Of a DNA stretch of 64,000 nt, positions 13,381 through 35,552 are shown one piece after another. This DNA comes from Paraburkholderia sp. Tr-20389 (GTDB lineage: Bacteria; Pseudomonadota; Gammaproteobacteria; Burkholderiales; Burkholderiaceae). Where the stretch lies: contig NZ_JAAGPD010000008.1 of the NCBI RefSeq assembly GCF_017104565.1, forward strand, positions 1 through 64,000, in the 5' to 3' direction. The position numbers were made by a program, and so were the translations under genes. Within the stretch, counting starts at the first letter, position 1. Every line of letters begins with the position of its first letter. A model generated the notes under the pieces. That model saw only the letters and a list, made by a program, of their open reading frames with translations. It was not told the DNA's origin and ran no database searches.

Positions 13381-15039
13381 TTAAGGCACGATCCAGTCGC
13401 TGTCGGCCACGACGCGCAACCTGTCGGGCTCCGCAAAGCGCACGATGTATCCGCCCTTCGACGCGAAGCGCTGCCCCGGCGCAAGCGTCAGGCGCGGATA
13501 GTAGCCCGTGAGGATGCGATGCTCGAGCATGTCGTCGATACGCTCGACGAGATAGTCCCGCACGAACGCATCCACCATGTGACTCAACGTTTCCGCGAGC
13601 AGCCCGCACGCGAGATAGGTATCGGCCTGCACGCGTTCGTCGACGACGGGAATATGGCGAATCGCGAACCAGCCGAATGCATAGTCGACCCGCACGCGCC
13701 GCCCTTGCGGCAGATCGACGGGATAGGCGAGCCGGGCGTTGGTGCGCCACTTGGCAGGCAACGGCGCGCGATCCAGACCGCCCATGATTCCCGACACATA
13801 CACCGCTGTCGATGCGGGCGGCGCATCGCCGAGCGCGGCAAGATCGGGCGGCCGCAGCCATAGCATCAGTGCGTCCGCATGCGGCGCATGGTGAAGCGCC
13901 GTCGCAACGTTCGCATTGGGAGGCAGCGCGCGATTGTCGACAGCGATACCCTGCTTGCGCAGACTGGTCGCGAGCATCTGCGCGGCGGCTTCGCCGCTGT
14001 CGCCCGCCCGATACAGTTGCAGCACGCTCCTGACGGGCCGCGCCGTCGGCGAACCGGCCGGCTCGCGCATCCGTTGCGCAATCAGCTGCGCTTCGAGCAA
14101 CACGCCCCGCGAAAAATACATCGAATAAGAGTCATGCTCGCTTTCAACGGGCACTTCGACATTCGGAAACAGACACGGCACCTGCTCGCGTTCGCAGAAG
14201 TCGTGAACAGGTGCCCAGTTACGTCCGCCCAACCCCGATAGCACGGCGAACACCGGCTGCTGCGCCAGATAGCGGCGCAGCTGCTCGTCCCATGTATCCG
14301 GCGCGCCGTGTAGTTCCCATACGTGCAACTCCCAACGGCGATTGACCATGAACATCATCTTGCGCGACGAGCGCAGCGCGGGCGTCGCGCCCAGCGGCGC
14401 TGCGTTCTTGTCGGCGAAATAGTGTTGCAGCACATCGAGCATGCCGCGCCGTTTCACGGGATCGGCGTCGGGTGTGATGATGGTCGCGAAGTGCAACACC
14501 GTATCGGTCACACCGGGCGCTCTGCGCCGGTCCAACGTCCTCAGATAGTCGATCAGTGCGCGCATGTCTGCATCGTTGAGCGCGAATTGCGGCATCAGAT
14601 ACCCAAGCGGCCTGCCTTCGGAATCGATGCCTTCGCGGATCGCGCGCGCAAGCGTCGCTTCCGTATACGGTTGACGCGCCGTGCGCATGCCGTCGATGAA
14701 CGGCACCGTGAGTTCATCCGGGCTCTGGGCGCTCGGACGAAACAGATACTGCGCAGCGATCGGCGGAATCGTCGTGTTGCCTTCCTTCGAGCCGAGACCG
14801 CTGCGCCGATGGCAATTCGCGCACGCAGCGGCCGCACCGCGCATCGCGAGCTGCTGATGATGTGTCGCCTCGACGGGAAGGCCGTCGCCTGCGATGCCGT
14901 CGCGAAAGATCGACTCGCCGGTATCGACGGGAGGCGTCGCGTACGCGCCGGGCGAGGACAGCAGCAAACCCGCTGTGAACGCAAACGCCGGCAGCAGCCG
15001 CCGCCACTCACGCGCTATCGCGACGAGACCGCGCGCCAT
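13381..15039 (-). CDS. Exported cytochrome c fused to a periplasmic-binding-protein-like domain
   Basis: A 552-residue exported protein. After a signal peptide (about 1-35, cleavage near AYA) comes a class I cytochrome c domain with haem motif CANCH (Cys73, Cys76, His77) and a probable axial Met in YLMPQFALND (about residue 150). From about residue 190 to 535 there is a type 1 periplasmic-binding-protein fold, as in amino-acid ABC receptors (FADKNAAPLG, FAVLSGLGGRNWAPV, AVYVSGIMGG). Start is the ATG at 15039, two bases after the upstream stop; it has no good ribosome site, so translation may be coupled. It is the last gene of the copper-oxidase operon. Role is inferred: electron transfer linked to recognition of a small molecule or partner. 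Confidence 0.85.
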   Translation of the reverse strand: MARGLVAIAREWRRLLPAFAFTAGLLLSSPGAYATPPVDTGESIFRDGIAGDGLPVEATHHQQLAMRGAAAACANCHRRSGLGSKEGNTTIPPIAAQYLFRPSAQSPDELTVPFIDGMRTARQPYTEATLARAIREGIDSEGRPLGYLMPQFALNDADMRALIDYLRTLDRRRAPGVTDTVLHFATIITPDADPVKRRGMLDVLQHYFADKNAAPLGATPALRSSRKMMFMVNRRWELHVWELHGAPDTWDEQLRRYLAQQPVFAVLSGLGGRNWAPVHDFCEREQVPCLFPNVEVPVESEHDSYSMYFSRGVLLEAQLIAQRMREPAGSPTARPVRSVLQLYRAGDSGEAAAQMLATSLRKQGIAVDNRALPPNANVATALHHAPHADALMLWLRPPDLAALGDAPPASTAVYVSGIMGGLDRAPLPAKWRTNARLAYPVDLPQGRRVRVDYAFGWFAIRHIPVVDERVQADTYLACGLLAETLSHMVDAFVRDYLVERIDDMLEHRILTGYYPRLTLAPGQRFASKGGYIVRFAEPDRLRVVADSDWIVP

Positions 15040-15041
15040 GA

Positions 15042-15863
15042 CTAAGGCGCGGGACGCAGCGCAGGCATGCCGCTCACGCCCACCGCCACGGTTGCGTGGC
15101 GCCCCGGTATCGCGGGCTTGATGAACATGGCTTCGTCGAACGGCGGGTTCACCGACACGCGTTCGAGCACGAGCCTGTCTTTTTTCGCAGCGCCCACCAC
15201 ACTGCTTTCGATCACGAACGGCACCTGCAAGCCATCCACTTCCCGAAAGTCGCGATACGTCACTTCGACCATCACCGGCGTGCGCGACAGGGTGGGTGCT
15301 TCGCGGTCGTACTTGATATCGAGGAACGACGCGGCATCGACCCACACATGCCGGTGCGCGCCCGACGGCAAGGTGACGACGAGCCGGTACGCGTTCTTGC
15401 CTTCGACGCTCTCCATGCCGTCGAGCGCGACCGAGATACCCTTCGCCGCATGATCGAGCAACGGACCGTCGATCACCTGCTCATCGCGCGCAAAACGGAT
15501 TTCGGCTGGCGCATAAGCCTGCACATCCGGCGCGCCGCTGGACGAAGGCCGGATCTTCCAGCCTTCCTTGCCGTCGAAAATACGCACGATCCGCTGACTC
15601 ATCGCCGTGATCTCGAAGCGCGTGCTGCTGGGCCGCCGCAACGCGAGCACGAACGGCGCGTTCGGCGTCGGCGCATTCGCGCTTTCGACATGCCCTGTCC
15701 AGAGCATCGTGCGAACCTGTCGCCAGGCTTCTTCGCCGCCGCGCGCGGCGGCGTTCTTCGCGATGATGTCGTCGACCGTGAGGGGATGCTCGGCGGAGGG
15801 CATCTGCGCCCATGCGAATGCGGATACGCAGCCCGCCAGCAACCATGTGACGATGCGCTTCAT
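15042..15863 (-). CDS. Exported LolA-like (outer-membrane lipoprotein-sorting fold) protein, copy 1
   Basis: A 273-residue exported protein with a signal peptide (about 1-19, FAWA/Q) and a beta-sheet fold resembling LolA/LolB-type lipoprotein-sorting proteins. Recognisable segments are DDIIAKNAAARGGEEAWRQV, FDGKEGWKIRP and VTYRDFREVDGLQVP. It is paralogous to the next gene upstream, sharing the AARGG, GWKxRP, DGPLxDxAAKG and HVWVDAxSFL positions. In many proteobacteria such proteins accompany exported enzymes and may chaperone them or bind hydrophobic ligands. No copper ligands are apparent. The function here is unknown; the operon suggests periplasmic handling of the secreted oxidases. Confidence 0.8.
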   Translation of the reverse strand: MKRIVTWLLAGCVSAFAWAQMPSAEHPLTVDDIIAKNAAARGGEEAWRQVRTMLWTGHVESANAPTPNAPFVLALRRPSSTRFEITAMSQRIVRIFDGKEGWKIRPSSSGAPDVQAYAPAEIRFARDEQVIDGPLLDHAAKGISVALDGMESVEGKNAYRLVVTLPSGAHRHVWVDAASFLDIKYDREAPTLSRTPVMVEVTYRDFREVDGLQVPFVIESSVVGAAKKDRLVLERVSVNPPFDEAMFIKPAIPGRHATVAVGVSGMPALRPAP

Positions 15864-15903
15864 GATCGGAACCCTCGTTCGAATACTCCGCTTACCTGGC
15901 CGC

Positions 15904-16719
15904 TCACTTGGCCGCGACCTTGGCGGGCGCGGGTGCGGGTTGCCCTTGCGCGGGCAACTGGGGCTTCGCGAACAGCGTATCGTCGGCGGGCTGATTCACC
16001 GTGACATGCTGGATCGTCATCTGATGCTTCTGCTTGACGCCCGTCACCTGCGTCTCCAGAAGATGCGGCACCGTCAGCGCGCCTTCGCGCCGGAAATCGC
16101 GGTAGTAGACAGCGACGTTGTGCATGCGGCCATCCAGCCGGCGCGGATCGCCTTCGACCTTCACTTCGAGAAAGCTCGACGCGTCAATCCACACATGCCG
16201 CTGCCGCTGATCTTTCGTCGTCAGCAGAATCTTGTACGCGCGATGTCCGTCCACTGTCTCAATGCCCTGAAGCGCGACCTGGCTGCCCTTCGCCGCGTAG
16301 TCGATCAGCGGTCCGTCGAGATCGGCCGTCTCCGCCGCGGACTTCGCTTCCGCGGACGTATAGGGTTCGGCCACATTGCGTCCGAGGAACGGCCGCACCT
16401 TCCATCCTTGCGCGCCGTCGTAGACCTGATACGCGATCTGGTTATCGAAGTTCAGTTCGAAGCGGCTCTTGTGCGGGCGCTTCATCGTCATCACGAACGG
16501 CAGCTTGACGGGCTTCGTGCCGCCCACGTCGATCTGTCCGCTCATCGTCATCGTCGTGACGGCGCGCCACGCTTGCAGGCCGCCGCGCGCGGCCACGTTG
16601 CGCTCGACGATCTGCGCGGCGCTCATGCCGCCGCCTCCCGCAGCCATTGCAGCCTGCGAAGCGGCGATCGCAGCCAGCGCGACCGTGGTGCCAGCCATCA
16701 TCAGAATGCCCCGATTCAT
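15904..16719 (-). CDS. Exported LolA-like protein, copy 2
   Basis: A 271-residue exported protein, paralogue of its downstream neighbour. It has a signal peptide (cleavage after AAMA), then AAQIVERNVAARGGLQAW, a beta-rich body with GAQGWKVRPFLGRN, and a C-terminal Pro/Ala tail with three AP/QP units. The ATG at 16719 has AGGAG at good spacing; the much longer open frame upstream reads through the next gene on a wrong frame and was discarded. Two adjacent but diverged copies suggest either a heterodimer or two different clients. No enzyme motif is visible. Confidence 0.8.
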   Translation of the reverse strand: MNRGILMMAGTTVALAAIAASQAAMAAGGGGMSAAQIVERNVAARGGLQAWRAVTTMTMSGQIDVGGTKPVKLPFVMTMKRPHKSRFELNFDNQIAYQVYDGAQGWKVRPFLGRNVAEPYTSAEAKSAAETADLDGPLIDYAAKGSQVALQGIETVDGHRAYKILLTTKDQRQRHVWIDASSFLEVKVEGDPRRLDGRMHNVAVYYRDFRREGALTVPHLLETQVTGVKQKHQMTIQHVTVNQPADDTLFAKPQLPAQGQPAPAPAKVAAK

Positions 16720-16754: not shown

Positions 16755-17243
16755 TCATTGAACGACCAGTCCGTCGATATGGAACGAACCGATCAGCACG
16801 TTGACGCGGTCCCCCGCCTTCACCACGTTGCCCTTGTTCGAAAACACCATCCAGTACTGCTGGCCGACTTCGAGCGTGCCCGTTTGCCGCAACTGGCCGA
16901 TGTTGTCCATCACGGGCACTTCGAGCAGCACATGATTCGCCTCGCCGTACAGATACGGCGTCGCCGCCTTGTCGCCGAGCAGCTTCGCGAGCGCCGGGTC
17001 CGTCACGCGATAACTGAAGCGCAGCAGGTTGCCCGACGCGGTGCGCCGCACGCTCATGCTGTCGATGCCGCGCATCGACTGATAGAACGTGCGGGCATGT
17101 GCCGTCAGCTTCATCGGCTCGTAGTGCGACGCGTGCGAGGCACCGCCATGCGCCGACACCTGCCGGGTCTGCTGCGCCGCTGCGGGGACCGCCAGTGCGG
17201 CGGCCCAGCCGACCCATAGCGCCGCGATGGCGAGGCCTCTCAT
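16755..17243 (-). CDS. Small exported protein of unknown function
   Basis: A 162-residue protein with a clear signal peptide (cleavage about AAAQQ at 23-24), a short His-rich stretch just after it (HGGASHASHYEPM) and a compact beta-rich body ending IGSFHIDGLVVQ. I do not recognise the family. The His cluster next to genes for copper proteins could bind metal, but that is speculation. Its ATG overlaps the stop of the 2726-residue exoprotein gene as ATGA, so the two are translationally coupled and possibly assemble together. Confidence 0.75.
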   Translation of the reverse strand: MRGLAIAALWVGWAAALAVPAAAQQTRQVSAHGGASHASHYEPMKLTAHARTFYQSMRGIDSMSVRRTASGNLLRFSYRVTDPALAKLLGDKAATPYLYGEANHVLLEVPVMDNIGQLRQTGTLEVGQQYWMVFSNKGNVVKAGDRVNVLIGSFHIDGLVVQ

Positions 17244-20200
17244 TGCACCGCTCCCGTGACGGGCGCGTTCGCCTGCTGCCCGCTCGCAGCCGCACCCCCG
17301 AGCGCCTGATTGATGAGATCGAGCAGCGCGCCCGGGCCGAGCGGCGCATTGCTGCCCGCGAACAGGCCCGTGCGCGGCAACTCCACTGCGCCGACGTCGT
17401 AGGCGCCGCTCTGCGGACGCTGCGTGCCGAAGAAGTCGTGGTTCGGCGCACCCGCATTGGTGCCGGCATTGACGGCAGGCGAGCCCGTCTTGATCGAGTA
17501 GTTGCCGAGCGGCACACCGTAGCCCGTGCTGCCCGAACTCACCGTCATGTTGAAGAGCGACAGCGGTCCATACGACATGTTGATCCACTGATTGCCTTCG
17601 TCCGGTGTCGCCGACGGCAGCAGACCGAACAGCGGGTTGGGCAGCACGGTGTCCGCGATGCCGGGCGGCACCGCGTAACCATTGCCGCCGCCTTCGGGCG
17701 GCACGCGCGCGCCGTTGCAGTACTGGCTCACCACGTTCGGATTCGCGTTGTTGTTGTGCGCGTTCGGGTAGTCGCCCGCATCCGTGATGATCGAATACGT
17801 CGGTGTGAGCCGCATGCCCGACGAGTGATCCGACGGCTTCGTATCGCCATAGGTGCCGATATCCCAGTACACCGCGTTCGGATCGCAGTAGCCCGTCTGA
17901 TGACCCGCCTGGTTCAGCGTCGGGTTCAGCGTGACGATGTTCTGCAAGCCGGGGATGTTCGGATTCAGCCCGCCCACGGTGATATAGAAGGTACGGTTCT
18001 GCCAGAACACGTCGTTCGTCAGCACAGGGAACGAGAAGTGGCTGCAGTCCTGTCCGGTCGGGCATCCGGCGTTGCCCGCCGTGAATGCCGTCAGGAAGTT
18101 CTGCGTGTGCTTCGCCGTTTCGAGGCCGGACGGCTGCATCGTCGACGTGGTGATCGGGCTGCACGTCGTTTCCGAGCCGACCGTCGTGCAGTTCGGCGGA
18201 CCGACGTTGGCCTGCGCAGCGAGCGCCGTGTTGAACAGCACGCCCGCCGACGCCGTCGAGTCGTTCGACATCACCGTGTTGTTGATGAAGCTCACCCGCA
18301 CGGCATCCTGCAACGACACGCCGCCGCCCGACCAGCCCGCCACGTTGTTCGCGATGATGTTGTTGATCACGCTCACCTGGTACCAGCGATTGCGGTTGCG
18401 CGGGCTGCGCTGAACATCCGTGCCGTTGATGTTCTGCAGACGCAGGCCGCCGCCCTTGCCGCTTTCCGCCGTGTTGCCGACGATCAGATTCCCGTCGATC
18501 ACGAGGCCCGGCCCGACGCCATCGGAGAGCTGCGGCGCACAGTCGATATCCACCGCCGAGTTCTCGCAGAATGTTCCGTCGGGCGGCACGCCCTGGGCGA
18601 TCAGCCCACCGCCGTAGGTCGGCAGCGTCGGGTTGTTGCTCTGGTTGAACAGGATCCAGTTGTGCGACAGATCGCCGTTGTAGCTGAAGCCGAAGTGCGC
18701 GACACCGCCGCCGTCGCCGCTGCTCATGTTGCCGCAGACCCAGTTGTAGTTGAAGTGATAGTTGTCCGCACCCGAGCAGAACGTCACGCCCGCTGCCGAC
18801 GAAGGCGTCGTCGAGTTGATCTCGTCGCCGTACGACGCATTGGACGTCACCGAGTTATGGTGCACGTTGACATGCGTGTTGTACGCGAACGGTTCTTCTG
18901 TGAAGCCATCGGCTGCGATCGTGCCGTCGGGCACTTCCACCTGGCCTACCGTGATGCCGCCCGTCAGCGTGCCTGCATTGCTGAACACGCGGTTGTTCGA
19001 CACCTCCGTATAGTGGTTCCAGCCGTGCAGGAAGATCCCGCCGCCGCCCTGCGAGCTGTTGGTGAACGTGATGCCGTCCACCCGCGACGGATTGCACAGG
19101 AAGTTGCTCGAATACGTGTTGCAGTCGGCATTGCTGGCCGTGAGCGGCACGCAGACGCCATTCGCCGTGCAGTTCGGATCGGCCTGCAGCTTGCCGCCCA
19201 CGCGCACGTCGCGCACGCCCTTGGCGAGCACGGTGATGCCGGCACCTTCATACGCGCCCATCAGCGTCGGCTCCATCAGCAGTTCGCCGAGATTGCCGTT
19301 GAGCGTGTTGTCCCAGCCCACCGTCGGTTCAAGCGGAATCGCGTCCACCTGGCGCTGCATCGCCGTCGGGCATGAATACGCGCCCGAAGGATCGTACGGA
19401 TTGCTCGACGAGATCGTGCCACCGTTGAGCGACACGCCGAACAGGCACGCAACCTCTCTGCGCCACGGATCGACCTTGCCGGACGGATGCGTGTTCGCGT
19501 TCACGACCACGGAAGGCGCGCCCACGCCTTGCAGGCGAACCGGCTTCCACATCAGCAACATCTCGCTGTAGTTGCCCGGACCGACGATGATCAGGTCGCC
19601 CGGCGTGGCTTTGTCGATGGCGGTCTGAAGCGCGTTGCTCGTACCGTTCTCGCCGTTCACATAGGTCGGCGCCTTGCCGCCGATCGTCACCGTCACGGTA
19701 TCGATCGACTTCTTGCCGTTGCCCGACGTGATCACCAGTTCGCCGCAGCGCGTCGTGGTGTTGACGCCGCGCTGCTGGATCGTGCAGCTCGACTGGCTGG
19801 CCGACAGCGTCGGCACCGTGACATTGATCTGCGTATCCGACCACGAATTGACGTGGGCATTCACGCCGCCGATCGTCACCGTTCCCGTACCCTGCGCCGT
19901 GCCGAAGCCATAGTGCCGCGTGACGAACTTCTGGTTATACGGCGACGACGTTGCGGCAGGACCGCCGTACGCGTGGTTCGGCACCTGCTGGTCGCCGAGC
20001 GCCTTGATGGTCAGCGTATGGCCTGCCTGGCTCACCCACGGACCGGCACCGCCGTTGCTGGTGTCGCCCGTCACCGACGAAATCGACGGCGTCGCATCCG
20101 GATAGGCGCAATCGGGCGGGTTGTAGCCGTCCGCGAACGCGGACACGGGCACCACAGGCGTATCCATGTATTGCGTCTGTCCCGGCATGAACGGTATCTC

Positions 20201-23200
20201 GTAGCAGAACTGGCTGTACGCGGGGTTGAACAGCGGATCGCGAATCGTTTGTCCCGGATGCGCGGGGTCCGGCATGTCGGGATCGTTCATGCAGGCGACC
20301 ATCATCGTCGGCGCATAGCCCGTCGGATTCGGCGGATTCACTTCCCACGTCGAGTAGTTCATCCCGTTGAAGATGCCCCACGAATCCGAGTAGACGCGGC
20401 TCACTTCGTTGCCCGCGAAGTCCTTCAGCGAAACGGGCACGTTCGGCACCGCGAACTTCTCGCCGAACTGCGGCGAATACGGATCGAACTCGGACGAGAA
20501 GTCGTCGAGCATGAAGCCCGTGAAATGCGCGGCCACGTGCGTCGAACTGAAGACCCAGAATTTCGCGAGCACGGACATCTGGTCGGTCAGCACGACTTCC
20601 TTGCGGTCGCACAGATGCCGCGATGCACCCGCGAACGGCGCGACTTCCTGCGACCCCGGGAACAGACTGATGTAGTCCGGCACCACCCGCAGCGCACCGA
20701 CGCACGGCCAGAACGTTTCGACGCTGCCCGTGTCGCCTTCGTGACGCGGCGACGAACCGAGCTCGGTGGTCGGGTTCTGCGCATTGTTGCGGTTGTACGT
20801 CGCGTTCACGGCCGCCTGGTCGGGCAGGATGAAGATGTTGCCCAGACCGCCGAACTGCTGCGTGACGGGCGCGATGTAGTTGTCGCCGATCAGGATATTC
20901 TTGTCCTCCTCCTTCACCAGCTCATAGCCGGGCGGCACGATGATCTCCACCACGTACTTGCCCGGAGGCAGCATGTACGAGCCATCCGCTTGCTTGCTGC
21001 AGATCGAGCAGTTCGAGTTCGTCGGCGTGCCTTTCGACGGATCGCGGCTCGTTACGCTCGGGAACTGGTACATCCCGTCGTACGGTGCGGGCTGCAACTG
21101 GTTGAATGCGTGCATGCCGTCGTAGCACTTGAATTGCGAGTGAGCAGGCAGCGCGCGCTTTTGCGAATCGAGCCATTGCGGGCTGTCCTTCAGCGTGTAG
21201 AAGAACGGATCGGTGGTTTCCTGACCCGGACAGTTCATGTTCGGCATGCCGTCCGAGCGGAAGCCCTGGGCCCAGTCATCCCAGCTGCTGGTCGTCGTCG
21301 TGTCGACGAGCTTGAGGCTCTGCGTGCCGTCGGCAGCCGTGCCTTCGGCGTACAGGTTGACCGTCACGTTAGGCACGTCGGGCGTCCAGCTCGTGTGAAT
21401 CAGCAGCGCGGGATCGTCGAACGGGCGGGTCGATGCGTAGATCACTTCGCCGTGAATGCCGCCGTTCTCGTTGGCCCCATACGGCGCCTTGCCGAACTCG
21501 ATGAACGAGTTCTGTCCCGAGAAGCCCTGCCAGCCCATCGTCGTGACCCACGGCGGATCGATACGGCCCGTCGACGGGTTAGTGCCCGTGCGGTCGTTGC
21601 AGTCCGCATCGTTGCAGTAGATCGCGCCGGGGACGCGCAGTGCGGACGGGAGATGCGACGTCGCCGATTCCTTCGTGTTCGCGTAGTTCGCGGCAATCGA
21701 CGAGCTTCCGCCGCCTGGCGTGCCGTCGGGCGGTCCGCCCGCGTCGTACACGACGTGCACGCCCGTCTGTTTGTAGCGCGTCGTGTCGGCCTCGGCGATG
21801 TACCAGTTGAAGAGCGGGAACACTTCGTTGAATGACGCGTAGCCGTTCAGGTCCGTATTGTTGAAGTTCGAATAGCTGCCGTCGCGGAAGCGGATATTGG
21901 TCGGCACCAGCGCGAGACCCGGCTCGCTGTCCTGCGACACGCCATCCCCATTCGAGTCCATGAAGGTGCGCGTATAGAGGTTCGTATGCCATTGCAGCAC
22001 GGGCAGATCGCCGATGTTCTGCATCTGTCCGCCCTTCAGCTGCACGGCCGTCGCGAGACCGTCGACGATCTGGTCATTCCACTGGTCGAACACCGTGATG
22101 CGGAACAGACCGTCGGGCAGGCCGTTGATGGTGAACGTGCCGTCTGCGTTGCACTTCGTGAACGCGATGTCTTCGAGATCCGGATCGCCGACGCTCACAT
22201 AGCACTGCGTGAAGCTCAGCGAATCGCGCGAACCGCTGCTATAGAGGTTCTCGTTAGGCGGACGGCTGTAGTGCAGATTCGTGATCTTGCCCGTCACGCC
22301 GTTGTTGCACGCGACGCCCTTGCACACGCCCGGCAGCCGCGCGTTGATGATCTTCGGATTGGCGAAGCCGATCGTCACGTGGAAGCCCGCCGGTCCGAAC
22401 TCCTGGAAGTAGGCGGGCCCGCCCACCTTGATGAACGCGTCATGCGCCTTCTGGCCGTCCAGCGTGTTGGTCTGCAGCCATTCCTCGCCCTTCGCGATGC
22501 GATCGGCAGCCGGCGTCGCGACAACGCCGTAGCGCCCCGGCATCAGGTTCGCGATGATCGCCTGGCCCACGAGCGGCGACATCGTCTTGCCGTCCGATTC
22601 GAACTTCGGGCAGGTCGGAATCATGCCGACCAGTCCGTCGTTCGCGGCCTTCGTGATCGGGCAGGCATCGAGTCCCGTGCTCGGGTCGATCGTGCCTTGC
22701 AGCGAATTCGACAGCGGCATGTTGAACATGTCGTAGGTCATCTGGCCGGTCGCATCGCCCGTTCCGCCCGCATCGTCGAACAGCTTGATTTCGAAGCCGC
22801 CGAGACCCGGCTCGCGTGCCGTGCCGAATGCATCGGTGCCGCCGCTCACGTCGACTTCGCCGTTCACGGGTGCGTCGTCTTCGAACACGAACACGGAGAT
22901 CTTCGCTGTCTGCAGCGGCGTCTGCTGCAACAGAACGTTGACGGTGTGCTGCGAGGGCGCGACAGGCGCGCCGCCCATCGCGTGGCCGCACGTGCCCGTG
23001 CCCGGTGCGAAGTCGGCGCCGCCGGGACCGGACGGGCAATCCTTCGCGATATCGAACTGCCGTTGCGGACCGTCCGGATTCTTCGGATCGACGGGTTGCG
23101 GTGCACCTGCTCCGTTCGTGAAGGTGTTGCCGGCGTCGCCGGGAAGAATCGACAGGTAATAGTGTTTGGTCGGATCGAGCGCGACCTGCGACGGATCGAC

Positions 23201-25420
23201 CGCCGTTTGCTGGGCTACGCCCGTGCGGCACACGCCGTTGCCGACGTCGCACACGGTTGGCACGTGTGTGTTCGTCGTGGGATCGAACACCGTCTGTCCC
23301 GACTCGCACGACACCGTGCCCACGCACCCCGCCGCGACGACGGGCATGTAGCTCGTATGGAAGCTCGTTCCCAGGCTCGGCACGGGTAGCGGCGGGCAAG
23401 TCGAAGGCCGCGTGCCCGAATTGACCTGGCAGGCGGGATCGATCTGGAAGGTACGGTCTTCCTCGATGATCCAGCGATAGTCGTTGATCGCCGTACCCGT
23501 CTTCGCGTCCTTCACCGCGACCACCAGGCCGCTGCCGCCCTTGAAGGTGACGGTGACCGTCGCCGGCGCGCTCGCCGTGTTCTGCGAGTTGACGGCCGTG
23601 TAGTGGAACGTGACCGTCGACGTTGCATTGCCGACGGGCGGGGCTGATGGCGTGACATTGAACGAACCGTCCGCATTGAGCGTCACCGTGCCGCCCGATG
23701 CGCCGCCCGAGATCGAGGCCGTCAGGGGCAGGCCCGCCGGATCGCGGTCGTTGCTGAGCACGCCGGGTGCGCCGATATGCAACTGTGACGCGATATTGCT
23801 GCTGAACGCATCATCCGATGCGACGGGCGCGCCGGAGAGGCAGCTCGAACCCGCCGTGCACGCGGCAAGCGTCACGGTCGCCGTCAATGCCGGGTTGCCG
23901 TTGGCCTGATAGACGAAGCTATCCGATGTCGTTCCCGAGTTCGGCACGTAGGTGAACGTGCCGTTGGGGTTCAGGGTCAGCTTGCCGCCCGTCGGCTGCG
24001 TCAGGACCTGCACGCCATACACGCCGACGTCGTTGGCCATCAGGCCCTTGCCGGGATCCGAGACGCTCAGCGTATTGCCCGCGACGAGGAAGTACGAATC
24101 GGGGTTCGCCTTCGCGTTCGAGTTGCCTGCCGCGGAAGTCGGCAGCGCACCGCCATTCACGCTGATATAGGCCTGCATGCCGCCGTCGCGCTGGTTGTTG
24201 GTCGACAGGCTCAACTGCCGGTCGAACACGGGCAACGCGAGTGCGCCCGCCGCGGGCGAGTTCATCATCACATCGTAGGTCTTGCCGGCCGCGAGGAACA
24301 CGGCGCTTTGCACGCGCGGCGTGCCCGGCAGCACGTTGCCGTCTTCCGCGATCAGCGAGAAGCCGGACACGGGCGGCAGGCCCGTCTGCGCGCCGACGAC
24401 CGACGGCACGTGCATGCGCAAACCCGCGTTCACGAAGCGCAGCAGCACCTGGCCCGTCGTCGTCGTGGTGGATGCAGGCGCCGTGACAGGGAACGACGAA
24501 CCGTTTGCATTCGATCGATCGAACGCGACGCCGTTGATCAGGTAGTAGCGCGGGTCGTAGTTGACGGCGGGCGGATAGCAGGTGTTGTACGTTGCCGAAG
24601 CGGGATCGCCGCAGCCGCCCGACAAGCCGGACCACACGCGCGTTTCGCTGAAGCCGGGATTGGCGACCGCGTTGGCGACAGCCTGATTCTGCACCGGGTC
24701 GATTTCGCCGAGCACGAGCGGCAGGTCGGCATCGTACTTGATGTCGGGATGGCTCGGGTTGGCCGGATAGGCCAGTCCCTGCGACGTGCCGGCGACGGGC
24801 GGCGTCGTGACCACGAGCACGCCATACAGCCCCATCGGCCCTTGAATCGACGGATGCGTGCCCGATTCGATCAGATACGTGCCGGGGCGCAGGTTGTTCC
24901 AGGTCAGCGCCGTCGTCGAGCCCGTCTTCACTTCCGTCGAAAACGACTGCACGCGCGGACCTTGCGCGGGCGGCGTGAAGCTCGCGCCGCTGCCGGTACC
25001 GGCGATCGGCCATGTCGTCGCGGTTTGAGTGGGGTGTACGGGGCTCGGCGTCGATGTCGCCGTTCCGCCGAGACCGGCGCCGAGCTGGCCGACGATCACG
25101 AGCGAGGTCGGCACCTGCGCGGGCAGATTGTTGGTCAGGTTGATCGTCAGCGAGCCGGGCGGCGTCGTGATGACCACGGGCGACCAGTTCGCGCCCGCGC
25201 CGGAATTGGCGGCTGCGCACGTTGCGGGCGCTGCGGCCGCCGCCGAACATGTATAGCCCCACATCGGGACGATCTGCCCATCCGGAAGCGCTATCGTCTG
25301 CGCCTTCGCGGTCAGCGTCACGTTCTGCGCGCAGACCATTGCGCTCGCCGTCATCAGCGCCGCCGCCGCGACGCCCTTCACGAGACCGGCAAGCGTCCTG
25401 TTGAAATCGCTGGTTCTCAT
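17240..25420 (-). CDS. Giant (2726-residue) secreted mosaic protein: degenerate multicopper-oxidase domain, Ig/cadherin-like, Sdr-like, IPT and beta-helix segments
   Basis: Exported (signal peptide about 1-31, VCAQ). Residues about 32-400 are a multicopper-oxidase-type cupredoxin pair (GTYLIESGTHPSIQGPMGLYG, FSLIAEDGNVLPG). The His pairs expected at the copper sites are not there. Cadherin/Big_9-like repeats follow at about 440-525 and 530-635, then Sdr/Cna-B-like or carboxypeptidase-regulatory-like segments (about 840-1300; FMDSNGDGVSQDSEPG). An IPT/TIG-like fold lies near 1800-1880 and a right-handed parallel beta-helix at about 1915-2550 (GDLIIVGPGNYSEML, VSNNRVFSNA). The C terminus has PQSGAYDVGAVELP, as in surface beta-helix proteins. 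ATG with GGGGAG upstream. It lies 20 bases after the second oxidase gene. Likely an extracellular scaffold or partner of the two smaller oxidases, exported by the type II-like system. Confidence 0.85.
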   Translation of the reverse strand: MRTSDFNRTLAGLVKGVAAAALMTASAMVCAQNVTLTAKAQTIALPDGQIVPMWGYTCSAAAAAPATCAAANSGAGANWSPVVITTPPGSLTINLTNNLPAQVPTSLVIVGQLGAGLGGTATSTPSPVHPTQTATTWPIAGTGSGASFTPPAQGPRVQSFSTEVKTGSTTALTWNNLRPGTYLIESGTHPSIQGPMGLYGVLVVTTPPVAGTSQGLAYPANPSHPDIKYDADLPLVLGEIDPVQNQAVANAVANPGFSETRVWSGLSGGCGDPASATYNTCYPPAVNYDPRYYLINGVAFDRSNANGSSFPVTAPASTTTTTGQVLLRFVNAGLRMHVPSVVGAQTGLPPVSGFSLIAEDGNVLPGTPRVQSAVFLAAGKTYDVMMNSPAAGALALPVFDRQLSLSTNNQRDGGMQAYISVNGGALPTSAAGNSNAKANPDSYFLVAGNTLSVSDPGKGLMANDVGVYGVQVLTQPTGGKLTLNPNGTFTYVPNSGTTSDSFVYQANGNPALTATVTLAACTAGSSCLSGAPVASDDAFSSNIASQLHIGAPGVLSNDRDPAGLPLTASISGGASGGTVTLNADGSFNVTPSAPPVGNATSTVTFHYTAVNSQNTASAPATVTVTFKGGSGLVVAVKDAKTGTAINDYRWIIEEDRTFQIDPACQVNSGTRPSTCPPLPVPSLGTSFHTSYMPVVAAGCVGTVSCESGQTVFDPTTNTHVPTVCDVGNGVCRTGVAQQTAVDPSQVALDPTKHYYLSILPGDAGNTFTNGAGAPQPVDPKNPDGPQRQFDIAKDCPSGPGGADFAPGTGTCGHAMGGAPVAPSQHTVNVLLQQTPLQTAKISVFVFEDDAPVNGEVDVSGGTDAFGTAREPGLGGFEIKLFDDAGGTGDATGQMTYDMFNMPLSNSLQGTIDPSTGLDACPITKAANDGLVGMIPTCPKFESDGKTMSPLVGQAIIANLMPGRYGVVATPAADRIAKGEEWLQTNTLDGQKAHDAFIKVGGPAYFQEFGPAGFHVTIGFANPKIINARLPGVCKGVACNNGVTGKITNLHYSRPPNENLYSSGSRDSLSFTQCYVSVGDPDLEDIAFTKCNADGTFTINGLPDGLFRITVFDQWNDQIVDGLATAVQLKGGQMQNIGDLPVLQWHTNLYTRTFMDSNGDGVSQDSEPGLALVPTNIRFRDGSYSNFNNTDLNGYASFNEVFPLFNWYIAEADTTRYKQTGVHVVYDAGGPPDGTPGGGSSSIAANYANTKESATSHLPSALRVPGAIYCNDADCNDRTGTNPSTGRIDPPWVTTMGWQGFSGQNSFIEFGKAPYGANENGGIHGEVIYASTRPFDDPALLIHTSWTPDVPNVTVNLYAEGTAADGTQSLKLVDTTTTSSWDDWAQGFRSDGMPNMNCPGQETTDPFFYTLKDSPQWLDSQKRALPAHSQFKCYDGMHAFNQLQPAPYDGMYQFPSVTSRDPSKGTPTNSNCSICSKQADGSYMLPPGKYVVEIIVPPGYELVKEEDKNILIGDNYIAPVTQQFGGLGNIFILPDQAAVNATYNRNNAQNPTTELGSSPRHEGDTGSVETFWPCVGALRVVPDYISLFPGSQEVAPFAGASRHLCDRKEVVLTDQMSVLAKFWVFSSTHVAAHFTGFMLDDFSSEFDPYSPQFGEKFAVPNVPVSLKDFAGNEVSRVYSDSWGIFNGMNYSTWEVNPPNPTGYAPTMMVACMNDPDMPDPAHPGQTIRDPLFNPAYSQFCYEIPFMPGQTQYMDTPVVPVSAFADGYNPPDCAYPDATPSISSVTGDTSNGGAGPWVSQAGHTLTIKALGDQQVPNHAYGGPAATSSPYNQKFVTRHYGFGTAQGTGTVTIGGVNAHVNSWSDTQINVTVPTLSASQSSCTIQQRGVNTTTRCGELVITSGNGKKSIDTVTVTIGGKAPTYVNGENGTSNALQTAIDKATPGDLIIVGPGNYSEMLLMWKPVRLQGVGAPSVVVNANTHPSGKVDPWRREVACLFGVSLNGGTISSSNPYDPSGAYSCPTAMQRQVDAIPLEPTVGWDNTLNGNLGELLMEPTLMGAYEGAGITVLAKGVRDVRVGGKLQADPNCTANGVCVPLTASNADCNTYSSNFLCNPSRVDGITFTNSSQGGGGIFLHGWNHYTEVSNNRVFSNAGTLTGGITVGQVEVPDGTIAADGFTEEPFAYNTHVNVHHNSVTSNASYGDEINSTTPSSAAGVTFCSGADNYHFNYNWVCGNMSSGDGGGVAHFGFSYNGDLSHNWILFNQSNNPTLPTYGGGLIAQGVPPDGTFCENSAVDIDCAPQLSDGVGPGLVIDGNLIVGNTAESGKGGGLRLQNINGTDVQRSPRNRNRWYQVSVINNIIANNVAGWSGGGVSLQDAVRVSFINNTVMSNDSTASAGVLFNTALAAQANVGPPNCTTVGSETTCSPITTSTMQPSGLETAKHTQNFLTAFTAGNAGCPTGQDCSHFSFPVLTNDVFWQNRTFYITVGGLNPNIPGLQNIVTLNPTLNQAGHQTGYCDPNAVYWDIGTYGDTKPSDHSSGMRLTPTYSIITDAGDYPNAHNNNANPNVVSQYCNGARVPPEGGGNGYAVPPGIADTVLPNPLFGLLPSATPDEGNQWINMSYGPLSLFNMTVSSGSTGYGVPLGNYSIKTGSPAVNAGTNAGAPNHDFFGTQRPQSGAYDVGAVELPRTGLFAGSNAPLGPGALLDLINQALGGAAASGQQANAPVTGAVQ

Positions 25421-25439: not shown

Positions 25440-27077
25440 CTAATTGCCTTCGTTGATCGTGAACGCCTGCGGATCGACGAGCATCATCATCATCATTCCG
25501 CCAGGGAAGATGTTGTTCGTCGTGATCTCGCGCTCATTGTGCGAATGCCACATGTAGGCGAAGCCTGCTTCCGATGTCGGCGAATTCGCGATCGTGCCGC
25601 TCGGCGGCGTGGTGCCCGTGTACGACGTCGCGCGAACCGTCGCGTCCGGACCGAGATACGGACTGCCGCCATACCACGCGCCGTTCGTGAGAACGCGCGC
25701 GTCGGGCAAGGTCACGGGGCCGCCGCTGCCGACATTGCCGAACGGATGCGCTTCGAGCGGCTTGTTGTGATCGGCGCACCACTCGTAGTAGTTGGGCGCT
25801 TTCGGATCCGCCGTGTAGTAGCCGTTCGCATCGGGAATGCAGACACTGCCGTCGCCCGCCGTGTGCCCATAGACGTCCCAGTTCAGGCCCTTGCCCGTCC
25901 AGTAGAAGATGCCGTCCATCGCGAGGCCGGGCGTCGTGGTCGTCGTGAAGAGCAGCGGTCCGGCGAGCTTCGTCGCGTCCGTCTTGCTCAGGATCAGATT
26001 GCCGTCGCGAGCCAGCACGCGCACGTGATTGCCGTGCTCGTGGAACGGATGCTGCCAGCGGCCCGAGCCGATCACGCGCAACAACACCAGCTCGCCCGGA
26101 TGCATGTGCGGATTGCCGTTGTACGGCTGATGCGGATACTGCTGCGCATAGTTGGGGTCCATGTCGTCGGGCATCGAGCGGCCGTTGATCATGAAATACG
26201 CCGGGTGATACGGCTCCGTTTCGACGGACATGCAGCCCGTCGGCTGCGAGCACGATTTGCTCGCTTCCTGTTCGGCCTGCGCGTGAATGCGCGGATCCAT
26301 CTCGGAGAACTGGAACAGGTACTCGCGGTCGTAGCACGCGGACGGATGGTTGTATGCCGCCGCCGCATTGCGGAAGTCGGGCTGGCCGTCCGGCAGCGAG
26401 GCCTGCACGGCGCGGCAGCCGGTGGGCACGGCGAGCGCGCCGGGCGCCGAGGTCGGCAGCACGATGATCGCGCCCGACAAGCCCATCTCGACCTGCAGAT
26501 CGCCTTGCGTGCCACTGTAATAGGCGTGCGTGCCGGGGGTCGACGCGACGAAGCTATACGTGACGCTGTTGCCGTGCGTCGCCTCGCGCGTGAGCAGCCC
26601 AGGCACGCCCGTCAGCGCGGCAGGACACGTGCCGTCCGGGTTGAGCGCGGCGGCGCAGACCTGAAAGCCCGGAAACAGGATCGACGTATTGCCCGCCGCT
26701 TCGGGCAGGTTGTTCGTCAATGTCACGGTGACCGTGTCGCCCTGCTTCACGATCAGCGTCGGCCCCGGCACCTGCATGCCGGGGCAGTTCGCACCCGGAA
26801 TGCCCGCCGGCGAAAAGCCCGTCGGCGCGGTGCGGCAGCCGTAGCCCCACGCGTAGACACTCGAACCGTCCGGCTGACTGATCCGGTCGGCTTGAGCCGT
26901 GAGATCGAAGCTCGTTCCCGTGATGCCCGGCGCTGCTGCGCGCGCGTGCTGACAGAGCAGCACGACGACGAGCAGTGCGTAGAACGACACATGGAACAAC
27001 GCCTGCAACGGCGTGAAGCGCAGCGAGCCGCAGCGCGCAGCGGTCATGCGCCGGAAGTTGTCGATGATGGTGCCCAC
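25440..27077 (-). CDS. Multicopper-oxidase-like exported protein carrying the C-terminal half of the trinuclear copper ligands
   Basis: A 545-residue exported cupredoxin protein; an N-terminal hydrophobic segment (about 27-47) ends in ARAAA. It keeps the third and fourth oxidase copper motifs: HPFHEHGNH (His343, His346, His348) and MWHSHNERE (His511, His513). In the fourth motif the type 1 Cys is Ser512. The two N-terminal motifs are lost: NTSILFPG replaces the usual HWHG, and GTHAYYSGTQ replaces YHSH. A run of five Met follows at about 528-532. GTG at 27077 has AGGAG upstream, ten bases after the previous stop. By itself it should not form a complete trinuclear site, which suggests pairing with the 519-residue neighbour. 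Extracellular metal or phenolic oxidation is possible; the substrate is unknown. Confidence 0.88.
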   Translation of the reverse strand: MGTIIDNFRRMTAARCGSLRFTPLQALFHVSFYALLVVVLLCQHARAAAPGITGTSFDLTAQADRISQPDGSSVYAWGYGCRTAPTGFSPAGIPGANCPGMQVPGPTLIVKQGDTVTVTLTNNLPEAAGNTSILFPGFQVCAAALNPDGTCPAALTGVPGLLTREATHGNSVTYSFVASTPGTHAYYSGTQGDLQVEMGLSGAIIVLPTSAPGALAVPTGCRAVQASLPDGQPDFRNAAAAYNHPSACYDREYLFQFSEMDPRIHAQAEQEASKSCSQPTGCMSVETEPYHPAYFMINGRSMPDDMDPNYAQQYPHQPYNGNPHMHPGELVLLRVIGSGRWQHPFHEHGNHVRVLARDGNLILSKTDATKLAGPLLFTTTTTPGLAMDGIFYWTGKGLNWDVYGHTAGDGSVCIPDANGYYTADPKAPNYYEWCADHNKPLEAHPFGNVGSGGPVTLPDARVLTNGAWYGGSPYLGPDATVRATSYTGTTPPSGTIANSPTSEAGFAYMWHSHNEREITTNNIFPGGMMMMMLVDPQAFTINEGN

Positions 27078-27087
27078 GGCTCATCTC

Positions 27088-28647
27088 CTAGGTGCAGGAC
27101 TTCGTGCTCGGGTCCACCGCGTGGCAGATGTGGACTTCCGTCATCAATCCGCCGAAGTTTTCGGCATCGTTCGACAGGTGGTCGAGGTTCGGCGTGTACA
27201 GATAGAAGATCGATCCCGGCGTATAGCGAGTGGTATCGCTCGCGTCGAGGATCACGTCGATCGACTCGCCGCCGCCCAGCGTGATCGAGTTGGTCAGGTA
27301 GGTCATGTCGTTGCCGGCAAGATCGCGCAACAGGCGCGCATTGATACCGATCACATGCATCGGTATGCCCAGCGATGCGAGCGTCTGGAACTCGCTCACA
27401 TCGAGGTCCGAAATACGCAGCAGTGCCTTGCCGCCCGCCGGGATGTTGATCAGCGCGGGCAACGGTTGCGAGAAGTGCTGCGTGCCGTCCGCGACAGGCG
27501 TCTGCATCGGACCTTGCGTGACGGTATCCGGATAGCTGCGGCCATTGAGAAGGAAGTACTTGTCCTTCATGTCGGTGAACGGCTCAGGATTGAACGTCAT
27601 GCCCACGAAGTGGAAGTTCGGATCGAAGCCGTGAATCTGCACGGGATACTCGACGTCATAGGCCGTCGAACCGTCGCCGTCGTTATACGCATACAGCGTC
27701 GGCGTGCCGCTGCTGTTCTTCACGTGCATCACGCTGTTCTGCGGCGGCAGCGGCGTCGAACAGAGAATGTCGTTGCCGCACGCGGTGCGCAGGTCTTTCT
27801 GCTGCAGAAGCAACGCGTTGTAGAGCGTGCCGCTCGATACGCGGTTCTGCCGCGGCCTCACGAAGATCTGGCCGACCATGCCCATCTGCAAATGCTCCGG
27901 CGGCGTGATGTGGCAGTGCCAGAAGTAGGTGCCGGCATCGGGCGCGAGATAGTAGTAAGTGAAGCTCGCGCCGATATTGATCGCGACCGACGCGTCGGGC
28001 ACGCCGTCGTAAAACGCGGATGCATTCGGATAACCGTGGAAGTGCACCGTGTGCTGCTCGAACAGATCGGGGCGCATGATCATCCCGACGTTGGTCAGCG
28101 TGAGGAAGAACTCGTCGTCTTCGTCGATGGCCATCGTCGGCGCGGGCTCGTTCCCGTTCATCACGCCTACGTCCATGATCTGCCGTGGATCGACGTGCCC
28201 CGTCAATTGCCCGGGCGGCGTCGATTCCGGGTCGGGCACGAGGCCGATCGCGCCGTTGTAGTTCGGATCGGCGGCCGTGCCGACCACATTGAACACCGAC
28301 GCGAACTCGGTGCCGGGCAATCCCTTCTGGATATCGGCGAGGCCGGACAACGGGCCAAACGCAAACAGATAGGTCTGGGTGCCGTCGGCCATCGTCGCGT
28401 AGCCGTCGCCGCCGGAGATCTGCTGGCATTTGATCGCGCCGTTGGTGACGCCCGTCGGGGTCGACGTCTGACCGGTAACGGACGGGCCCGTGTAGGCAGG
28501 CTCACCCGCGCCTGCCGGCAGAGCTGTCGGGTGCAAGGTGGTAGTGGGTGGACATTGCACCCTGAACGACTGCGCGAACGACGGCAACGCAAACAGCAGC
28601 AGCAACAGCGCCGCCACGCCGTTGCGGTATGCGAGGGTGCTGGACAT
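27088..28647 (-). CDS. Multicopper-oxidase-like exported protein carrying the N-terminal half of the copper ligands and a type 1 Cys
   Basis: A 519-residue exported protein (signal peptide about 1-25, PSFAQ). It has the first oxidase motif as VHFHG (His202, His204) and the second as FWHCHITPPEHLQMGM (His244, Cys245, His246, His252, Met257). The latter also reads as a type 1 copper loop, C-x6-H-x4-M. In the C-terminal half, positions equivalent to motifs three and four have lost their His pairs (GIPMHVIGIN, NFGGLMTEVHI). This is the mirror image of the downstream 545-residue protein. A type 1 site in the first domain recalls two-domain laccases and NirK. ATG at 28647 with GGAGGT upstream; it is the first gene of the operon. 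Confidence 0.88.
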   Translation of the reverse strand: MSSTLAYRNGVAALLLLLFALPSFAQSFRVQCPPTTTLHPTALPAGAGEPAYTGPSVTGQTSTPTGVTNGAIKCQQISGGDGYATMADGTQTYLFAFGPLSGLADIQKGLPGTEFASVFNVVGTAADPNYNGAIGLVPDPESTPPGQLTGHVDPRQIMDVGVMNGNEPAPTMAIDEDDEFFLTLTNVGMIMRPDLFEQHTVHFHGYPNASAFYDGVPDASVAINIGASFTYYYLAPDAGTYFWHCHITPPEHLQMGMVGQIFVRPRQNRVSSGTLYNALLLQQKDLRTACGNDILCSTPLPPQNSVMHVKNSSGTPTLYAYNDGDGSTAYDVEYPVQIHGFDPNFHFVGMTFNPEPFTDMKDKYFLLNGRSYPDTVTQGPMQTPVADGTQHFSQPLPALINIPAGGKALLRISDLDVSEFQTLASLGIPMHVIGINARLLRDLAGNDMTYLTNSITLGGGESIDVILDASDTTRYTPGSIFYLYTPNLDHLSNDAENFGGLMTEVHICHAVDPSTKSCT

Positions 28648-28804: not shown

Positions 28805-28967
28805 TTGACCCAATCGAGGCGTGGGGAACGTGATGGACGCGGTTAGCGCGTGAAGGGATGGTGACGGCAAACATCTAGACCTTGTCGGATCGGCGGCGCG
28901 GTTGGTGCGTAGTGTCGAATCACAGGAAGCCGCACGTGCTGGCGCAAAGCTTCGGGAGGAGACGCGA

Positions 28968-29918
28968 GTGACCGATGACCAGAACACCCATCCTTTGGTG
29001 AGCGTCTATATTCCGACGAAAAACCGGCTGCCGCTTCTGCAAAGGGCGGTCGCGTCGGTCTTGCAGCAGACCTATCCTCATATAGAACTGGTCGTGGCCG
29101 ACGACGGCTCAACGGACGGCACGCGCGAGTACCTTCGCGAACTCGCCGCATCGGGGAAATGCGTGGCCGTTTTCCTGCCGGTAAGCGAAGGCGCCTGTGC
29201 GGCGAGAAACGCAGCGATCTCACTGACGACAGGCGAGTTTCTTACCGGCCTGGACGACGACGATTACTTCCTTCCTCAAAGAATCGAATGTTTCGTCCAG
29301 CGATGGATGGAGCTTTCCGCACATGGCGAAACCGACGGCATCGCCGGGCTGTTCGATTCGGCGCGCTGGATCGGCCATGCAATGGAGCGGACCCTTTTCG
29401 ACCGCGCCTGCGCACACCCGAGCGATCTCGCGGCCGCATGCGCCGTCGGTACGCAGGTATTCTCCACACGCGAGAGGTTCGCCGCTGCCGGTCTCTTCGA
29501 CAACGCGATGCAGATCTGGCAAGACTGGGACTTATGGCTGCGGATGGCGCATCGGTATGGACAATTCATCGGCATCCGCACCTGCACTTACGTGATCGAC
29601 GCGACGCATCAGCGTGAGCGGATCTCCGACCGGTCCGAATCGGCCGTGCGGCGCGCAGCACAACTCTTTGCCGCCAAGCACTATGCATCGGCGCCGATTC
29701 AGCGGTTCCGGATACGCGCGGTGTTTGTCGATTACCCGCAGGTTCGGCTCGGTTTGCTTGAACTGGCGGGGCTGTTCGCCATAGGAAGCCGGAGAGCCGT
29801 CGGCAGATATCTGCTTCGGCACACGGTTGGCCCCGATCTGTACGACCAGATACGCCGACGACTTTCCGGCTGGTCCGTTTTCTTCGTGAAGCTGAGGTCG
29901 GGCGGATTGCGCCGGTGA
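28968..29918 (+). CDS. Family 2 glycosyltransferase
   Basis: A 316-residue GT-A glycosyltransferase. The N-terminal nucleotide-sugar fold has VSVYIPTKNRLPLLQRAV and ADDGSTDGTREYL; the metal-binding DxD region is LDDDDYFLPQR (about residues 96-106). A further catalytic-type segment is QIWQDWDLWLRMA. No signal peptide or membrane span, so it acts at the cytoplasmic face. GTG at 28968 with AGGAG seven bases upstream is preferred to the upstream alternative. It is convergent with rmlB and transcribed apart from the rest of the polysaccharide genes. The transferred sugar cannot be told from sequence. Confidence 0.88.
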   Translation: MTDDQNTHPLVSVYIPTKNRLPLLQRAVASVLQQTYPHIELVVADDGSTDGTREYLRELAASGKCVAVFLPVSEGACAARNAAISLTTGEFLTGLDDDDYFLPQRIECFVQRWMELSAHGETDGIAGLFDSARWIGHAMERTLFDRACAHPSDLAAACAVGTQVFSTRERFAAAGLFDNAMQIWQDWDLWLRMAHRYGQFIGIRTCTYVIDATHQRERISDRSESAVRRAAQLFAAKHYASAPIQRFRIRAVFVDYPQVRLGLLELAGLFAIGSRRAVGRYLLRHTVGPDLYDQIRRRLSGWSVFFVKLRSGGLRR

Positions 29919-29940
29919 ACGCGGCGCCGCGATCCGTTTC

Positions 29941-31002
29941 TCAGGCGTCGATCAGATCATCCACGCCCGCCAGCTTAAGATACTCGCCCGAAGTTACGTC
30001 GCTGACCCAACGCTGATGAGCGAGGTACCAGTCGACTGTTCTTCTTAGCCCGGTTTCGAATGTCTCTTCCGGCGTCCAGCCGAGTTCGCGCTCCAGCTTG
30101 CCGGCATTGATCGCGTATCGGCGGTCGTGCCCGGGGCGATCGGCGACAGCCGTGATCTGCTCGCGGTACGGACCCGATGCCTTCGGCAACCGCTCGTCGA
30201 GCAGGCGGCACAACGCATGCACGACGTCGATGTTCGCCACTTCGTTGCACCCTCCGATGTTGTAGGTTTCGCCCGGCCGGCCTTTCGCGAGCACCGCGCG
30301 GATCGCCTTGCAGTGGTCGCCGACATACAGCCAGTCCCTCACATTCAGTCCGTCGCCGTAAACCGGGAGCGGCTTGCCGGCCAGTGCTCGGGTTATCGTC
30401 ACCGGAATCAGCTTCTCGGGGAACTGGTACGGGCCGTAGTTGTTCGAGCAGTGTGTCGTGAGCGTCGGCAAGCCATACGTGTGATGCCACGCGCGCACCA
30501 GATGATCGGAACTCGCCTTGGACGCGGAATAGGGGCTGTTCGGCGCATAAAGACTGCTCTCCGAAAAGGGCGGCGCCTGCATCGACAGCGAACCGAATAC
30601 CTCGTCTGTCGAGACATGCAGGAAGCGAAATTCGTCCCGGGCCGCGGCCGGCAATGCTTGCCAATAGTGACGCGCCGCTTCGAGCAGCGTAAAGGTGCCG
30701 ATCACATTGGTTTGCATGAATTCGCCGGGACCGTGAATCGATCGGTCGACATGGCTCTCGGCCGCGAAATGAAGAATCGCCCGTGGCTGATATTGCTCCA
30801 GAAGGTAATCCATCGCCTCCCGGTCGCAGATGTCCTCGCGCACGAAGATGTGACTCCGGTCGCCGCGCAATGATTCGAGCGTACCGAGGTTGCCCGCGTA
30901 AGTCAGCTTGTCGACGTTCACGACCGTTTCATCCACGGTGTTCAACCAGTCGATGACAAAGTTCGCCCCAATAAAACCCGCTCCACCCGTTACCAGAATC
31001 AT
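29941..31002 (-). CDS. rmlB: dTDP-glucose 4,6-dehydratase
   Basis: Second step of dTDP-L-rhamnose (and related deoxysugar) synthesis. A 353-residue extended short-chain dehydrogenase with NAD-binding [10 protein letters not shown] near the N terminus. The dehydratase-specific region [11 protein letters not shown] and the catalytic [15 protein letters not shown] follow, then [17 protein letters not shown]. All are as expected for a full-length RmlB. ATG at 31002 with GAGG upstream. It lies 61 bases after rmlA. The genes for the last two rhamnose steps, rmlC and rmlD, are not in this window, so either they lie elsewhere or another dTDP-sugar is made. Confidence 0.95.
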
Positions 31003-31063
31003 GGTCGCCTCATCAAGCGTTATCGACGTGCCGCGTTGGTTGGAAAGTGCGAAGATGTTTGCC

Positions 31064-32017: not shown

Positions 32018-32083
32018 GACCGCCTCCTCAAATCCATATCGCCTGATTACAGTGGTTGACGACGCGCGCATGCGCAATGCGCT

Positions 32084-33043: not shown

Positions 33044-33069
33044 CTCGCTACTCCTTGGGGATATTCCCG

Positions 33070-34209: not shown

Positions 34210-34278
34210 ACTTGCACCGCTCCTTAAGGTTCCAACCGTGATCCCTGACGTCCGATCCTCAGGGGGGAAGACCACGCG

Positions 34279-35526: not shown

Positions 35527-35552
35527 GGAAACTCCCAATATCCGAGCTACGA

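Follow-up and report, generated by a model that had tools for sequence, protein, structure and literature searches.

How can a multicopper oxidase be built when no single protein carries a complete set of copper ligands? This question is raised by a stretch of 64,000 nucleotides of Paraburkholderia sp. Tr-20389 (contig NZ_JAAGPD010000008.1, positions 1 to 64,000, called the window here), in which two adjacent genes encode multicopper oxidase-like proteins, A and B, each having half of the ligands of a trinuclear copper site. Judging from the sequences, it is very likely that A, B and the N-terminal part of the next protein, C, are paralogous two-domain subunits of an asymmetric A:B:C ring with one trinuclear site, located at A/B. 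The three genes lie almost gaplessly on the minus strand, with 10 nucleotides between A and B in the window:

27088..28647 (minus strand): protein A, 519 residues, ATG start; two-domain and multicopper oxidase-like, with ligands kept in domain 1 and lost in domain 2.
25440..27077 (minus strand): protein B, 545 residues, GTG start; two-domain and multicopper oxidase-like, with ligands lost in domain 1 and kept in domain 2, and without the type 1 Cys.
17240..25420 (minus strand): protein C as a whole, 2726 residues.
24146..25420 (minus strand): N-terminal part of protein C, about residues 1-425; a two-domain multicopper oxidase-like paralogue, as judged from its relation to B and its place after B.
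28036..28053 (minus strand): first motif of A, with H199 for the type 1 site and H202 and H204 for the trinuclear site.
27877..27918 (minus strand): second motif of A, H244, C245, H246, H252 and M257, with the type 1 Cys, His and Met and the trinuclear H244 and H246.
26034..26051 (minus strand): third motif of B, H343, H346 and H348.
25539..25547 (minus strand): fourth motif of B, H511, S512 and H513.

The type 1 ligands of A, H199, C245, H252 and M257, are located in its first cupredoxin domain. The trinuclear His of A are H202 and H204 in QHTVHFHG and H244 and H246 in WHCHITPPEH, with C245 in between, and these two pairs are the only HxH in the protein; the second-motif stretch WHCHITPPEHLQMGM comprises H244, C245, H246, H252, M255 and M257. 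In B the trinuclear His are in the second domain, namely H346 and H348 in QHPFHEHG, where HPFHEHG also contains H343, and H511 and H513 in WHSHNE, which has S512 between them. Since the tally is four in A, four in B and none in C, no single polypeptide holds the set of eight. An earlier note on this DNA had described the 519-residue protein as keeping the first and second motifs without the third and fourth, and the 545-residue protein as the reverse; both descriptions were borne out, with every residue number correct.

Conservation was assessed in 94 loci. Hits in the window's genus and order supplied 14 of them; the other 80 were the best of 459 given by a single scan of named genomes, with members in Paraburkholderia, Burkholderia, Trinickia, Pandoraea, Collimonas, Cupriavidus, Acidobacteria such as Granulicella, and metagenome-assembled genomes labelled Proteobacteria. 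The scan used the patterns EH[LM]QMGM (H252 to M257 of A) or MRPDLF.., so that conservation of these residues is partly built in; the patterns include no trinuclear His and nothing of B. An A frame of at least 380 residues is present in 93 of the 94 loci. Distinct sequences were counted, 87 for A, 85 for B and 83 for C, the last being judged on its first 520 residues. One decayed locus was fetched twice (L072 = L148) and its A fragment is counted among the 87; L156, which has B in two frames, was excluded from the 85, and L071 has C in two frames. Seven pairs of loci have identical A C-termini.

In this sample H199, H202, H244, C245, H246, H252, M255 and M257 of A are found in 87/87 and H204 in 86/87, the exception being L144. 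H343, H346, H348, H511, S512 and H513 of B are each present in all 85 distinct homologues. The split pattern is therefore no accident of one sequence. The complementary pattern also occurs in two divergent clusters outside these counts, L180 and L194; A, B and C of L180 are 31-37% identical to those of the window, and exactly the same ligands are kept. An extra HxH of B, H324/H326, lies just ahead of the third motif and not at a recognised ligand position; H324 is conserved in 83/85 and H326 in 85/85.

The best solved relatives of A by sequence are 3g5w and 2zwn, which have the same ligand pattern in their first domain, and those of B were 2zwn in one search and 3gdc, 3g5w and 2zwn in another. 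We take 3g5w, a Nitrosomonas blue copper oxidase, and 2zwn, a metagenomic laccase, to be type C two-domain multicopper oxidases (2dMCOs), a label that fits their motifs. According to PMC13151041, 2dMCOs are trimeric, each trinuclear site drawing its ligands from one protomer's domain 1 and its neighbour's domain 2, and their types A, B and C are distinguished by the location of the type 1 site, which in type C is the N-terminal domain. A has two cupredoxin domains with the type 1 ligands in the N-terminal one and so fits type C; the type 1 Cys, which the earlier note regarded as moved, is therefore not odd but in a known arrangement (PMC13151041). A and B would together restore the ligand set of a type C 2dMCO, as their motifs suggest. 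The type C enzymes resemble the pair in fold, in the N-terminal-domain type 1 site with HCHx5H and in a trinuclear site expected between chains. They differ in that both halves are in one gene, whereas here there are two genes and a ligand-free paralogue, and one site is expected.

When A, B and C are aligned jointly with six complete type C 2dMCOs, the ligands of motifs 1 and 2 are kept in 10/10 A rows and the sites of B and C are lost; at motif 1, B has T/V/S, L/V/I and P, and at motif 2 Ser and Gly replace the Cys and the last His. Motif 3 is kept in 10/10 B rows, and the pair is lost in A and C. Motif 4 was misaligned there because B contains an insert of about 100 residues, and was read instead from pairwise comparisons with solved structures, in which A has YTP where HDH is expected and the fourth motif of B matches the second domain of 2zwn, likewise without Cys. 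The insert itself, about residues 393-505 of the second domain of B, contains conserved WDVYGH and ADHNKP, whose His are not kept in L180.

Protein C is the third paralogue. No HxH was found in the first 520 residues of 81/83 C sequences, and C of the window has neither HxH nor the type 1 Cys. Pfam multicopper oxidase domains match A and B, whereas none matches the N-terminus of C; among NCBIfam models, none reaches its cut-off for A or B. One more Cu-oxidase_3 protein is encoded elsewhere in the same genome. In direct comparison, C of the window is 26% identical over about 330 residues to the B homologue of L064, and a short C is 34% identical to B of a divergent cluster (E 1e-27). In a maximum-likelihood tree of 44 rows, which carried a long-branch warning, A, B and C each form one clade (support 100/100, 99/97 and 100/100), and B and C are sisters (99/97). 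The inner branching of the three clades is nearly alike, L074 being placed differently in B.

The B frame is next to A on the same strand in 93/93 loci with an A frame, although it is broken in L156 and shortened in L072 = L148, and C follows B directly in 89 of these 93, the exceptions being L072/L148 and the contig ends L119 and L135. A and B are both unbroken in 90 loci; two of these leave no room for C, and it is present in 88/88 of the others. The median gaps are 10 nucleotides for A-B and 17 for B-C. In the divergent clusters L076, L077, L180 and L194, C is a short protein of 634-693 residues, separate from a giant protein. The A, B and C parts are under purifying selection: in three comparisons the ratio of nonsynonymous to synonymous substitution (dN/dS), a rough estimate made by NG86 in most cases with domain borders sliced on ungapped codons, is < 0.21 in every part, ligand-free domains included. 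The lowest value is that of A domain 1 in two of the three comparisons and of B domain 1 in the third.

How would these subunits make one enzyme? The type 1 copper would sit in domain 1 of A, which would also contribute four trinuclear His; with the remaining four from domain 2 of B, a copper-loaded site would form at the A/B interface. With A domain 1 facing B domain 2, B domain 1 and A domain 2 would each need a partner. Because a three-subunit ring needs a third subunit, and these two domains would otherwise be unpaired, C is the natural third member; the B/C and C/A interfaces would be purely structural. In multicopper oxidases electrons usually pass from the type 1 copper to the trinuclear site. 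In the proposed ring they would enter at the type 1 copper of A and move via C245 and H244/H246 to the trinuclear site, where O2 would be reduced to water; since C245 lies between H244 and H246, this path probably stays within A. The earlier note had proposed an obligate heteromer of the two proteins. There is strong support for its core, namely that two gene products contribute to one trinuclear site and the first of them carries the type 1 site: the conserved complementary loss, the adjacency and the homology to trimeric 2dMCOs all point that way. The pair as the unit appears incomplete, as a ligand-free paralogue follows, and A:B:C is the more likely composition.

The remainder of the module follows on the same strand:

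17240..24145 (minus strand): rest of protein C, with Ig/cadherin-like, SdrD_B-like and choice-of-anchor Q regions and a weak TIG match.
16755..17243 (minus strand): protein D, 162 residues, no family assigned; kept in the module.
15042..16716 (minus strand): proteins E (about 15904-16716) and F (about 15042-15863), mutually related and LolA-like.
13381..15036 (minus strand, start approximate): protein G, with a cytochrome c domain and a weak periplasmic-binding-protein-like match; kept in the module.

In the window's lineage the giant surface-type protein and C form one polypeptide, whereas in L180 (2987-13636) and L194 (3815-13456) the giant protein has a gene of its own upstream of A. Since it is a distinct gene in the divergent clusters, C can exist apart from most of the giant part. 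The order in L076, L077, L180 and L194 is the giant protein, A, B, short C, D and then G, and in L180 an SCO1/SenC copper-chaperone-type gene lies ahead of G inside the cluster. D and G occur both in clusters close to the window's and in the divergent ones. E and F, the LolA-like pair, both have LolA_like matches below the Pfam cut-off; they are present in the nearer clusters, match one stretch more weakly in L068, L071 and L075, and were not found in L076 or L077. The known laboratory strain Cupriavidus metallidurans CH34 has the whole set from A to G with the same motifs. In one of three plasmid records inspected, A to F are each annotated as 'hypothetical protein'; the other two have no gene table. 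Next to the module, window positions 28902-35607 hold apparent sugar-nucleotide, glycosyltransferase and polysaccharide export genes, named by eye from their translations.

These partners suggest where the enzyme may act. C would tie it to the giant surface-type protein, with D, G and, in nearer relatives, the two LolA-like proteins as partners. The N-terminus of A is hydrophobic and, by eye, resembles a secretion signal. Together with the surface-type giant and the cytochrome c gene, secretion-like N-termini suggest an extracytoplasmic oxidation, most likely of a metal ion or a phenolic compound.

A second split oxidase was found in 3/200 genomes of the order; the three belong to a single genus (L158 4881-8733; L161 3990-7740; L162 5962-9751). 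Its first protein, s1, has 321-349 residues with motifs 1-2 and no Cys, and the adjacent s2 has 917-948 residues with motifs 3-4 and the type 1 Cys; the C-terminal part of s2 gave weak matches to beta-propeller models in L161. s1 and s2 form their own clade in the 44-row tree (100/99). As in A and B, the trinuclear site is divided over two genes, but the type 1 site is in the second protein.

Several observations weigh against the A:B:C proposal. A, B and C are not firmly joined apart from other 2dMCOs in the tree (78/48), to which the long-branch warning applies. At the first position of motif 2, His persists in 3/10 B and 1/10 C rows of the joint alignment. Distances between loci correlate among A, B and C with r 0.89-0.95 over 82 loci, which is in line with the proposal, but this indicates co-inheritance and not contact, and a linked operon could explain it. 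The AlphaFold2 monomer models, made from 48-row alignments of similar sequences, are poor, with mean pLDDT of 56.5 for A and 62.6 for B. With the A model, Foldseek ranked a three-domain ascorbate oxidase first, followed by 7rab and 3g5w, with 2zwn also among the best; with the B model, 2zwn and NirK entries were at the top. Finally, no third multicopper oxidase-like gene was seen among the frames listed beside s1/s2, so the case for C as a ring member cannot be generalised.

This last point bears on the idea that A and B form the enzyme without C, as A2B, AB2 or larger rings, C being a mere anchor of the same fold. The two multicopper oxidase-like genes of the second split system are in line with it, as is the faster evolution of C, whose dN/dS is 0.17-0.21 where that of A domain 1 is about 0.03, in two of the three comparisons. 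Nevertheless, C is a two-domain paralogue and the sister of B, is the next gene wherever A and B are unbroken and there is room, and persists as a short gene where the giant part is encoded elsewhere; we regard an enzyme without C as unlikely. It is more improbable still that there is no trinuclear site, A being a type 1 blue copper electron carrier on a multicopper oxidase scaffold and B and C being structural or binding another metal. Loss of copper sites is known in the superfamily, factor V being an example given in PMC3600357, but this idea leaves unexplained why the four His of A (86-87/87) and the four of B (85/85) are retained jointly, also in the divergent clusters.

Hardly credible is an arrangement in which A and B are each homo-oligomeric and a site is completed by non-canonical His. 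Conserved His do exist elsewhere: outside its first domain A has H39 (84/87), H151 (82/87), H339 (82/87), H346 (87/87) and H490 (85/87), and B keeps H265, H326 and H437 (85/85). The register of motif 3 of A differs between two alignments, and one of them places H431 of A, which is His in 49/87, on H346 of B. These His are isolated, however, and not HxH pairs at ligand positions; the motif 3 pair of A is kept in neither register, the first domain of B has no invariant His (H168 48/85, H184 57/85), and in L180, the most divergent B, the alignment shows residues other than His at positions H405 and H437. The check for other His that could complete a site in either protein alone was thus negative. 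Returning to the A:B:C ring, we consider it probable, with less confidence than in the ring itself, that a 2dMCO homotrimer was duplicated and its half-sites were lost complementarily to give an obligate heterotrimer, a 'ceruloplasmin in three polypeptides' with one trinuclear site and a third subunit tethering it to a giant surface protein, and that such a split came about at least one further time, in the separate lineage of s1/s2.

Among the closest known systems are the six-domain oxidases. As described in PMC3600357, these consist of three two-domain units in which at most one trinuclear site survives. The ligand pattern of A, B and C together would fit the three units and single site of ceruloplasmin, hephaestin and bacterial MnxG, although these are one polypeptide whereas A, B and C are three genes. 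In the bacterial six-domain oxidases the ligands are in domains 2 and 3; here they are in domain 1 of A and domain 2 of B. NirK is a trimer with a mononuclear type 2 site, a two-domain relative whose copper site lies between subunits, as proposed for A/B. Unlike in NirK, all eight trinuclear His are kept in A and B together, and the NCBIfam NirK model scored far below its cut-off for them. The structure 9cck was set aside as a heteromeric NirK because its title names one protein, though its chains have two lengths. The MofA operon of Leptothrix and Rubrivivax is likewise betaproteobacterial and combines a multicopper oxidase with a cytochrome c gene; it was rejected as the closest system because a single MofA protein contains all four motifs and the partner genes differ, according to PMC8218464. 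The p-cymene-induced 'multicopper oxidase type 3' of Burkholderia xenovorans, listed as CopA-like, was also set aside.

The module is patchily distributed. Among 35 genomes of the window's genus, full-length A is present in six and pieces of it in two. The decayed locus L072/L148, from Paraburkholderia mimosarum, has A in two frames, a B of 361 residues and no C, and L073, from a different genome of that genus, retains only about 86 residues of A, in a frame of 101. Of the genomes of the order, 7/399, the window's included, match at E 1e-25. In the phylum 19/398 match at 1e-15, strongly only in the window's genome and G470, and the ten that were read of the other 17 matches are single-chain proteins with all four motifs. 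No A-B fusion was found among the 94 loci or in the 7/399 matching genomes of the order; two long overlapping frames, in L118 and L119, are in another reading frame and are not A-B fusions. A six-domain single chain was not encountered, A, B and C being separate genes in the loci examined.

A heteromeric, heterotrimeric, heterodimeric or split multicopper oxidase was not found in the open-licence literature, which is weak evidence of novelty as subscription journals lie mostly outside it. Annotation by single-protein homology misleads here, because A resembles an oxidase and B and C resemble degenerate ones. If the proposed ring exists, different gene products would come together in it to build the catalytic metal cluster of a multicopper oxidase. 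It would also be a natural counterpart to the step proposed to lead from trimeric 2dMCOs to single-site six-domain enzymes such as ceruloplasmin and MnxG, and duplication with complementary loss would become directly testable.

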